Origin: Streptoalloteichus hindustanus | GTDB lineage: Bacteria; Actinomycetota; Actinomycetes; Mycobacteriales; Pseudonocardiaceae | Direction: 5' to 3' | NCBI RefSeq assembly: GCF_900129375.1 | Contig: NZ_FQVN01000001.1 | Coordinates: forward strand, 496,001 to 560,000 | DNA length: 64,000 bases | Shown: positions 17,261 through 40,555 of the stretch, in pieces | Numbering within the stretch: the stretch's first letter is position 1 | How the letters are laid out: each line of letters starts with the position of its first letter | Program-made: the position numbers and the translations under genes | The notes under the pieces: generated by a model | The model's input: the letters and a program-made list of their open reading frames with translations, nothing else | The model's database searches: none | Told to the model about the DNA's origin: nothing

Positions 17261-19596
17261 GCAGCGCGTCCACCGCTTTCCACCCGCCGGGCGCCCACCG
17301 CGCCCCCCAGGAGCTCGGGGGCGGGCACGAGCGCCCGATGGGGCACCGCGAGGTGCTGGAGGCGCTGAGCGGCCTCCTCCTGGCCCTGCTGGTCGCCATC
17401 CTCAGCTCGACGATCGTGTCCAACGCCCTGCCCACGATCGTCGCCGACCTGCACGGCACCCAGGGGCAGTACACCTGGGTGGTCACCGCCACCCTGCTCG
17501 CCTCCACCGCGACCACGCCGATCTGGGGCAAGCTCGCCGACCTGTTCAGCAAGAAGATGCTGTACCAGGTGGCGATCGCCGTCTTCACCCTCGGCTCGGT
17601 GCTGTCCGGCCTCTCCCAGTCGATGGGCACGCTGATCGGCTTCCGCGCCCTGCAGGGCGTGGGCATGGGCGGGCTCCAGGCCCTCGCCCAGGTGATCATC
17701 GCCGCGATGGTCAGCCCCCGGGAGCGCGGTCGGTACAACGGCTACACCGGCGCGGTGATGGCCGTCGCCACCGTGGGCGGGCCGCTGGTCGGCGGTGTCA
17801 TCGTCGACACCTCGTGGCTCGGCTGGCGCTGGTGCTTCTTCGTCGTCGTACCGCTGGCCGTGCTCGCGTCGGTCGTGCTCAGCCGCACGCTGAACCTGCC
17901 GGTGATCCGCAGGAAGGCGCGCATCGACTGGGCGGGGGCCACGCTGATCACCGGTGGCGTGAGCCTGCTGCTGATCTGGGTCTCCTTCGCCGGCAAGGAC
18001 TTCGGCTGGTGGTCGCTGTCGACGCTGGCCTACCTGGCGGGCGCGCTGGCCTGCGTGGCGCTCGCGCTGGTCGTGGAGTCCCGGGTGGCCGAGCCGGTCA
18101 TCCCGCTGCACCTGTTCCGGAACCGGACGACGGTGCTCGCCGTCGTGGCGAGCATCGCGGTCGGGACCGCGATGTTCGGCTCCTCGGTGTTCCTCGGGCA
18201 GTACTTCCAGCTCTCCCGCGGCTACTCGCCGACCGCCGCCGGCCTGCTGTCGCTGCCCATGGTGGCCGGGCTGTTCGTGGCCTCCACCGTCTCGGGCCAG
18301 GTCATCACGCGGACCGGGAAGTGGAAGGCGTTCCTCGTCGCGGGCTCGCTGCTGCTGGTCACCGGTCTCGGCCTGCTGGGCACCATCGACCACGCCACCA
18401 GCCTGTGGGTGATCGGCGCCTTCCTGGTGCTGGTCGGGCTCGGGATCGGCATGTCCATGCAGAACCTCGTGCTCGCGGTGCAGAACACCGTCGGCCCCAG
18501 GGACCTGGGCGCGGCCAGCTCGGTCGTGACCTTCTTCCGCTCGCTCGGCGGCGCCGCCGGCGTCTCGGTGCTGGGCTCGGTGCTCGCCACCCGGGTGACC
18601 GAGCTGGTGAACGAGGGGCTGTCCCGGCTGCCGAGGCGGCCCGGCGCGGCGGCCGCGTCCGCCGGCGGCGGGCTGGACATCGGGCACCTGCCGGAGCCGG
18701 TGCGGGAGATCGTGCGCGCGGCCTACGGCGACGCGACGGGGCTGATCTTCGTCATCGCGGCGGTCGTGGCGGCGGCGACCGTGCTGTCGGTGATCTTCAT
18801 CAAGGAGGTCCCGCTCCGGTCCTCGACCACCGGTAACCCGGCCGAGGCGACCACCGGGGACGCGCGGAGCGCGGCGAGCACGCCAGTGACGGCAGACGGC
18901 GTCGACGGGACCGTTGTGCACAACGTTGTCCACAGGCCTGTGGATGAGTTCCAGGGGAATGTGGACAACTTGACCTCGGCTGTGGACAACTCGATGCGAC
19001 ATGTGGGTGAACTGGGGGTAACTCGGGAGACCGCCCAGCTCAGCCCGACCGGGCATCCCGGACGGGTGGCGGCGGAGAACGCCGCGCGGCTGGACGACTG
19101 GTACGCCCGGCTGCACGACCACCTGGCGGAGTTCACGACCTCCCTGGCGCGGGCCGGTCAACAGCTGACCGAGCAGGCCACCGCGCTGCGGGCCGAGCTG
19201 GCCGCGGCCGCACCGGCCCGGATCGCCGAGGCCGAGCCGGCCGAGCCCGTCGAGTCGCCGGCCGACCGGGCGCGGCGCGAGCAGCTCCTGGTCGGCGCCC
19301 GCCACGAGGCCGAGCGCATCGTGGCCGCGGCCCGCGAGCAGTCGGAACGGCTGCGGCAGGACGCCGAGCGCCAGGCGCGGGAGACGCTGGCGGCGACCCC
19401 CGTCCAGCCGGGCGCCGAAGCGGGCGTCGAGGTGGGCGCCGAGACGGCCCTGGCGCCCCCACCGGCCCGGATCGACGTGCCCAGGGCGGCCACCCGCCGC
19501 GCCGCCTCGATCAGCGGCGAGCTGCGGTCACTGCTCGGGTATCCCGACGGATCGGCGAACGGCCAGCACAGCCCACGCCACGCGGCGGGGAACTGA
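17257..19596 (+). CDS. DHA2-type MFS exporter fused to a coiled-coil C-terminal extension, 779 aa
   Basis: Residues ~30-520 are a 14-helix MFS drug exporter: LLALLVAILSSTIVSNALP, GKLADLFSKKMLYQ (motif A), FRALQGVGMGGLQAL (motif B) and IGMSMQNLVLAVQNTVGPRD. The usual end of the family, VIFIKEVPLR, is near residue 515. The frame then continues without a stop for ~260 residues. That part is a Ser/Thr/Val linker (VVHNVVHRPVDEFQGNVDN), a helical segment (RLDDWYARLHDHLAEFTTSL), then a strong coiled coil near 665-710 (REQLLVGARHEAERIVAAAR) reminiscent of DivIVA-like proteins. The linker DNA contains a DnaA-box cluster. The role of the extension is unknown. Confidence 0.88.
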   Translation: MSSASTAFHPPGAHRAPQELGGGHERPMGHREVLEALSGLLLALLVAILSSTIVSNALPTIVADLHGTQGQYTWVVTATLLASTATTPIWGKLADLFSKKMLYQVAIAVFTLGSVLSGLSQSMGTLIGFRALQGVGMGGLQALAQVIIAAMVSPRERGRYNGYTGAVMAVATVGGPLVGGVIVDTSWLGWRWCFFVVVPLAVLASVVLSRTLNLPVIRRKARIDWAGATLITGGVSLLLIWVSFAGKDFGWWSLSTLAYLAGALACVALALVVESRVAEPVIPLHLFRNRTTVLAVVASIAVGTAMFGSSVFLGQYFQLSRGYSPTAAGLLSLPMVAGLFVASTVSGQVITRTGKWKAFLVAGSLLLVTGLGLLGTIDHATSLWVIGAFLVLVGLGIGMSMQNLVLAVQNTVGPRDLGAASSVVTFFRSLGGAAGVSVLGSVLATRVTELVNEGLSRLPRRPGAAAASAGGGLDIGHLPEPVREIVRAAYGDATGLIFVIAAVVAAATVLSVIFIKEVPLRSSTTGNPAEATTGDARSAASTPVTADGVDGTVVHNVVHRPVDEFQGNVDNLTSAVDNSMRHVGELGVTRETAQLSPTGHPGRVAAENAARLDDWYARLHDHLAEFTTSLARAGQQLTEQATALRAELAAAAPARIAEAEPAEPVESPADRARREQLLVGARHEAERIVAAAREQSERLRQDAERQARETLAATPVQPGAEAGVEVGAETALAPPPARIDVPRAATRRAASISGELRSLLGYPDGSANGQHSPRHAAGN
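18914..18989. other. Cluster of DnaA boxes inside the MFS-extension coding sequence
   Basis: Three perfect actinobacterial DnaA boxes occur within 64 bp: TTGTCCACA at 18926-18934 (+), and TGTGGACAA at 18960-18968 and 18981-18989 (-). They are accompanied by the one-mismatch palindrome TTGTGCACAA at 18914-18923 and a weaker TGTGGATGA at 18939-18947. The last two perfect boxes are 21 bp apart, two helical turns. The stretch is coding throughout. Confidence 0.75.
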
Positions 19597-39925: not shown

Positions 39926-40555
39926 TCAGAGCAGGCGGCGGGCAACCCGCCCATGGAGATCGGTCACCAGGCGGACGAGCCAGGGCGCCAGAACCGCCGC
40001 GGCCAGCCCGATTCCACTGTGGACAATCACGGCGCCGGTCCAGGTCGGGCCGCCCCACGCCGAGGAGATGTCCTCGCCCCACATGGCGAACGGGTAGGTG
40101 GCGCCCCGAACCACCATGGCTCCCAACAGGAAGACCACGGCGGACGACAGCGCGCCCATGGGCAGGACCAGCGCCAGGTACAGCGCCTCCCGCCACCGCC
40201 GGCGGTCGCCCAAGCGTCGCCACAGCCCCCCGTGGGGCTTCGGCGGGTCGGGAAGGGAAACCCGCAACAGCACGCGGACCCGAGCTCGCTCGACCTTCGC
40301 CATCAACCGCGCGAACGCCAGCACCGCCAGGAAACCGGCCACGCCAACCAGAACGACGGAGGTGGCCGCGCTGACCCCCAGCCCGACCACGACCAACGGG
40401 AACCACACCAGCCCGAGCGGCAGCGAGAGCAGGGCGAAGAGCACGCGCCCGCCGAACGCCCGCACACCAGCCCGCTGCCAGACGTAGGTGTCGGTCCGCA
40501 CCAACGGCCAGTACCACATCGACACCGCTTCCCCCCACGTGTTCGCCTCGCTCAC
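39926..40555 (-). CDS. Sensor-domain membrane protein, 209 aa
   Basis: Four hydrophobic segments in two pairs: VLFALLSLPLGLVWFPLVVV, VVLVGVAGFLAVLAFARLMA, ALYLALVLPMGALSSAVVFL and GAVIVHSGIGLAAAVLAPWL. A cytoplasmic basic loop lies between them. This is the arrangement of the 'Sensor' domain normally found in front of actinobacterial histidine kinases, here alone without a kinase. Function unknown. The start is ATG at 40555. Confidence 0.65.
   Translation of the reverse strand: MSEANTWGEAVSMWYWPLVRTDTYVWQRAGVRAFGGRVLFALLSLPLGLVWFPLVVVGLGVSAATSVVLVGVAGFLAVLAFARLMAKVERARVRVLLRVSLPDPPKPHGGLWRRLGDRRRWREALYLALVLPMGALSSAVVFLLGAMVVRGATYPFAMWGEDISSAWGGPTWTGAVIVHSGIGLAAAVLAPWLVRLVTDLHGRVARRLL

Follow-up and report, generated by a model that had tools for sequence, protein, structure and literature searches.

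The window, a 64,000-nucleotide stretch covering positions 496001-560000 of contig NZ_FQVN01000001.1 (C19) in the 7.28-Mb genome of Streptoalloteichus hindustanus (G000), harbors a forward-strand gene for an MFS transporter with a C-terminal extension (17338-19596), the start of which was placed at 17338 on the basis of the conserved peptide MGHREVLEA. The transporter domain matches Pfam MFS_1 (1e-47) and is joined to the extension within a single frame, which agrees with the sequence-only reading that had located a cluster of DnaA boxes in the linker of an MFS fusion protein. The linker peptide is a seven-residue repeat, VDEFQGN VDNLTSA VDNSMRH VGEL, and the frame stays open through the cluster in both S. 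hindustanus and S. tenebrarius, so that the cluster is intergenic in neither species. The extension (19024-19593), which by eye resembles a DivIVA-like charged coil and was seen only in the genus Streptoalloteichus, remained under all Pfam cut-offs, its best hits scoring 19.7 bits for NNH7 and 11.4 bits for DivIVA (cut-offs 27 and 28). It was sought in 41 genomes, and a true relative was found in one other genome, that of S. tenebrarius (L001 in G001), a member of the same genus; two weak candidates (G008 and G015) were rejected as unrelated, their loci containing no match to clpB, the MFS part or the extension. The gene clpB is situated 0.8 kb downstream.

Three exact copies of the DnaA box TTGTCCACA were located in the linker, one on the forward strand (18926-18934) and two on the reverse strand (18960-18968 and 18981-18989), the latter two 21 bp apart. 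According to Table 1 of PMC4285127, S. coelicolor and M. tuberculosis have TTGTCCACA as their high-affinity box, and E. coli has TTATCCACA. The boxes are accompanied by the palindrome TTGTGCACAA at 18914-18923, a near-box in both directions, and by a weaker reverse-strand site at 18939-18947 (TGTGGATGA, reverse TCATCCACA) with one mismatch to TTATCCACA; all five sites had been named from the sequence beforehand and were found in place. The near-box at 18939 and the two reverse-strand exact boxes at 18960 and 18981 follow one another in 21-bp steps. The unusual stretch extends to about 19023, being marked by A/T-ending codons (12 of the 37 codons in 18913-19023, forward strand, a feature kept in both species) and by two reverse-strand near-boxes with two mismatches each. 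One of these possible weak boxes, TCACCCACA at 19002-19010, emerges from the alignment and is placed 21 bp from the box at 18981, while the other, the putative site TTACCCCCA at 19013-19021, is similar to GGGGATAACT in a second cluster at 834.6 kb of the contig.

A fourth exact copy of TTGTCCACA in the window is isolated (40018-40026, reverse strand). The four copies observed compare with a mean of 0.13 in dinucleotide shuffles, none of 100 shuffles reaching four, and the initial estimate that a 9-base word should occur by chance once or twice per 64 kb was too high. The genome-wide count that had been suggested as a check gave 228 exact copies of TTGTCCACA (114 per strand) versus 32 for the reversed word; the box is common because of a dispersed intergenic module, and box counts alone therefore do not single out the window site. 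The full cluster scan covered contig C19 (1.187 Mb or 16% of the genome, 1040 called frames, 81.3% coding), with frames called by a crude ORF caller of our own that was trained on three window genes and later retrained on long frames. The contig carries 72 copies of TTGTCCACA and nine of TTATCCACA, with six of the reversed word. Module copies, 29 in number, account for 52 of these 81 boxes; the remaining 29 boxes comprise 21 intergenic and eight coding ones, and three of the eight make up the window cluster. With a cluster defined as at least three TTRTCCACA whose starts are no more than 60 bp apart, four were found on C19, namely the modules at 353.6 kb and 644.1 kb, an intergenic five-box cluster at 834.6 kb and the window cluster. 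The last is the only coding cluster of at least three boxes on this 1.187-Mb contig, and the many similar clusters that had been named as evidence against the site did not appear there. The seven other coding copies of TTGTCCACA, including two in modules that called frames overlap, give a rate at which 1.6e-5 triples within 64 bp are expected in the coding part of C19. This expectation, together with the shuffles, rules out a chance origin, and the locus contains several consensus boxes within a short stretch beyond chance, as is characteristic of a chromosomal DnaA-box cluster outside oriC.

The sole match to the DnaA C-terminal family was obtained at C19:652223-652423, within a frame at about 650816-652505. 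Since the cluster lies at C19:514926-514989 on the same contig, the two are separated by about 136 kb. The earlier statement that the site is far from any dnaA or oriC holds inside the window, but on the contig the site is oriC-proximal. In the oriC candidate region downstream of the dnaA frame (C19:653168-653391), exact boxes occur only at 653168, 653256 and 653391, three in about 230 bp, which is a lower per-base density than that of the window cluster; the oriC of Kutzneria albida is described in PMC4210621 as having no classic DnaA boxes. The 834.6-kb cluster (C19:834585-834664, L169) displays five exact boxes in 80 bp. In S. tenebrarius 66 of its 72 aligned bases are kept, including four exact TTRTCCACA, and the differences are partly G/A exchanges at the box position; it was seen in two of 200 family genomes, those of S. 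hindustanus and S. tenebrarius. Both clusters are found in the same genome, each less than 200 kb from oriC on opposite sides, and have GGGGRTAACTCGG in common, whereas the 834.6-kb cluster is intergenic, contains more boxes and is otherwise arranged.

The gene neighbours in S. tenebrarius are alike (upstream regulator frame 86%, MFS 91%, clpB 95%), and the cluster is conserved in this one sister species. The two reverse-strand exact boxes are identical, and the forward box reads TTATCCACA (Val to Ile), still a DnaA box, the substitution falling on the G/A position at which DnaA boxes vary. The weaker site at 18939-18947 and TTACCCCCA are identical as well; beside the weak box at 19002-19010 one base differs, at 19001. 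The palindrome has become CTGTGCACAG, both arms being substituted with the palindromic symmetry retained, and in the spacer at 18970-18981 four consecutive codons each specify an altered amino acid. Loss of the boxes by synonymous change, which had been set down as counting against the site, was not seen in S. tenebrarius, the sole close relative compared.

Codon alignment of the two species gave 453 of 496 identical residues for the MFS part, with the same codon at 361 of 433 and agreement at 254 of 323 four-fold sites. The corresponding values were 28/37, 27/28 and 14/15 for the cluster (18913-19023), and 115/177, 69/114 and 44/80 for the downstream part. The cluster differs from the downstream part (p=9e-5 for codons, p=0.0075 for four-fold sites) but not significantly from the MFS part (p=0.10 and p=0.32), and the pooled same-codon comparison gave p=0.017. 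Of the 37 codons of the stretch, S. hindustanus has 12 that end in A/T and S. tenebrarius 13, with 11 common to both, as compared with 8/525 and 7/516 upstream; within the boxes A/T-ending codons amount to 6/15 versus 6/22 outside, with no significant concentration (p=0.49). Base differences affect 12 of the 111 positions in the stretch, 1/36 in the four box footprints (at the G/A position) versus 11/75 outside (p=0.10), and two of those 11 fall one in each palindrome arm. The identity of the stretch (99/111 bases) is not above that of the MFS part (1355/1488), and the downstream coding sequence is more diverged (391/531). These several lines, not all of them significant, point to selection at the DNA level on the cluster, which is likely rather than proven because only two genomes were compared.

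An explanation at the protein level, in which a conserved seven-residue linker repeat creates the boxes, deserves to be weighed before the others, improbable as we judge it. Val-Asp-Asn written as GTG GAC AAC yields the reverse box and seven codons yield the 21-bp spacing, so repeat and spacing coincide, and the repeat accounts for the spacing equally well as two helical turns account for the repeat. The partial conservation of the peptide (28/37 residues) and the lack of significance in most codon-conservation tests against the MFS part suit this explanation too. It is contradicted by the second repeat of S. tenebrarius, VDNSAPT, which has a proline and no hydrophobic residue; that proline also speaks against a coiled coil in the linker. 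Moreover, the repeat includes neither the forward box nor the palindrome, both species avoid the preferred G/C-ending codons, and the exchange of Val for Ile at the forward site still gives a DnaA box.

In the dispersed module, a promoter-like TANNNT is preceded at fixed distances by DnaA boxes and succeeded by a conserved GC-rich core; examples are L003 1501-1610, L007 1501-1610 and L071, and none occurs in the window. Tandem box pairs number 49 in the genome, 27 on one strand and 22 on the other (control 0), and are mostly 19 bp apart; among 30 fetched pair loci the downstream core was recognized by pattern in 27 and by eye in one more (L024), L022 and L023 being one module. A core-only search returned 86 places (48 and 38 by strand; control 0), with TANNNTGG upstream of the core in all 86 (TAGGCT in 84); 82 of them also have one or more exact TTRTCCACA boxes upstream in the same orientation. 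These 86 places and three copies derived from box pairs constitute a census of 89, in which TANNNTGG is invariant because the census required it; a further copy, L193, shows the census to be a minimum. The 89 copies hold no box (4), one (22), two (58) or three (5), and the box starts are found at -48/-49 (74), -66 to -68 (52), -99 to -102 (15) and -120 to -122 (9) from TANNNT, one box being on the opposite strand. A TTGG-like -35 element at -24 is weakly conserved. Conservation is absent from the sequence that separates boxes from promoter, and the modules are therefore not fresh transposition copies. One core of the 89 overlaps a frame that was called. For 85 copies the genes on both sides were called, and the spaces between convergent genes are strongly enriched: 48 of the 85 lie there, 34 in tandem gaps and 3 in divergent gaps, as against 4 convergent, 20 tandem and 18 divergent among other gaps of at least 110 bp at the same loci (p=1.5e-7 for convergent, p=7e-8 for divergent). 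The idea of a structured or hairpin RNA in the core was dropped, since four folded cores were no better than shuffles (z-scores 0.05, 0.72, 0.48 and 1.46) and no Rfam family was found in ten module loci or the window.

Within the own family, which we take by genus to be the Pseudonocardiaceae, the Streptoalloteichus-type core was matched with at most three mismatches in 32 of 150 genomes; the reversed control also matches at this level, once each in 10 genomes, and therefore only the multi-copy genomes count, namely G001 (131), G045 (27) and G080 (10), the module being multi-copy in other genera of the family as well. Of 45 cores in loci from other genomes, nine of these loci being from G001, 43 were accompanied by TANNNTGG, in the forms TAGGCT, TAGACT, TAGAAT, TACGCT, TAAAAT and TAGCCT, and by an upstream box in 40. 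Of 397 genomes of the order, 25 carry the box pair combined with TANNNTGG (controls 0); the own family, represented by 79 genomes, accounts for 23 of the 25. GGG..CCCC adjoins this combination at 25 of 30 loci examined, the five misses including both loci from other families. Among 394 genomes of the class, the core together with TANNNTGG was present in three, the same three that represent the own family in that sample; this pattern recovers only 8 copies in S. hindustanus itself, so that absence elsewhere is not proven. At L066, L067 and L068 (G080) and L087 (G146), a GAACGGACCGTTC palindrome stands in place of the DnaA boxes, and these copies may represent the same promoter core with a different operator. 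In S. tenebrarius, module copies were also observed in direct tandem, about 200-270 bp apart (L071-L074).

In other bacteria, genes are regulated through DnaA boxes close to their promoters, and boxes in this genome recur at set distances from promoter-like sequences, which gives some appeal to the idea that DnaA at the window site controls transcription of the extension or clpB and not replication. We regard this as quite unlikely: the module core with TAGGCTGG is missing from the window, no promoter-like sequence is recognizable by eye at the module distance, and S. tenebrarius has not kept the TTGACC at 18970. Another reading, which we hold to be a little more doubtful still, regards the site as a relic, an intergenic cluster that joined the MFS frame when a stop codon was lost and that now only drifts. 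Low third-position G+C is what a captured non-coding stretch should exhibit, and no intact matching element exists elsewhere in the genome; when 171 bases were searched against the own genome, only the site itself and box-sized matches came back, the best other being a box pair (3e-4 over 34 bases), by which a copy of oriC or of another element was also rejected. Drift is opposed by the boxes having stayed while spacer codons were substituted, and by the greater divergence of the surrounding coding sequence. A degenerate copy of the dispersed module, despite the tandem same-strand boxes that place the site among the 49 tandem pairs, is highly improbable, for the spacing is 21 and not 19-20, the site is coding whereas the modules are intergenic, no TANNNTGG with GC-rich core follows the boxes, and TAGGCTGG, CTCGCCCCCC and GGGTGGGGGCTG are absent from both strands of the window.

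We hold, with slightly better than even confidence, that the window cluster is no by-product of the protein but a chromosomal DnaA-binding site that delays re-initiation and is maintained by selection at the DNA level. The three strong boxes would be bound by DnaA, as suggested by the known actinobacterial box, with the near-boxes probably assisting; as 21 bp corresponds to about two turns of DNA, all the bound molecules would sit on the same side of the helix. Its distance of about 136 kb from oriC means that the site would be copied soon after initiation, and the newly copied site may take up DnaA and thereby delay re-initiation, an effect that has been proposed for datA and for the oriC-proximal clusters of B. 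subtilis and S. coelicolor. The tolerant linker between transporter and extension would host the site, with selection acting on the DNA. The interpretation offered by the sequence-only reading is upheld insofar as a non-chance box cluster outside oriC resides in a coding linker, is kept in the sister species and bears signs of DNA-level constraint; its remoteness was not upheld, the site being oriC-proximal.

DnaA-box clusters that damp initiation outside oriC are known, and the described examples are intergenic. A conserved in-gene cluster, if true, would mean that replication control can be overlaid on a protein code and can shape a peptide. A literature search, with subscription papers mostly outside its reach, returned no description of the module or of coding DnaA-box clusters, and the dispersed module is apparently undescribed. 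It represents a bolder lead than the window cluster, and it would provide a natural system for the old question of initiator titration. We raise, as a speculative and rather doubtful proposal, that this lineage may possess a genome-wide DnaA-responsive system, in which about ninety intergenic modules with boxes phased upstream of their own promoters and a few oriC-proximal clusters, one of them dictating a transporter linker peptide, would jointly titrate DnaA and make transcription a readout of its level.

In our best reading, the site resembles the oriC-proximal DnaA clusters of Bacillus and Streptomyces, with binding of DnaA presumed, but is located in coding sequence. The DnaA-box clusters of B. 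subtilis and S. coelicolor, presented in PMC5742627 as datA-like and as repressing untimely initiation, likewise have consensus boxes grouped outside but near oriC. The Bacillus clusters are found in eight intergenic regions according to PMC4451416, whereas the window cluster is inside an open reading frame. The datA locus of Escherichia coli is also a box cluster near yet outside oriC that is copied early, and early copying near oriC matters for it (PMC5742627). Unlike the window cluster, datA is non-coding; it has a minimum of 262 bp, requires an IHF site and promotes ATP hydrolysis. Intergenic location would appear to describe how the reported cases lie rather than how they act, and the window site is best filed as a variant of them.
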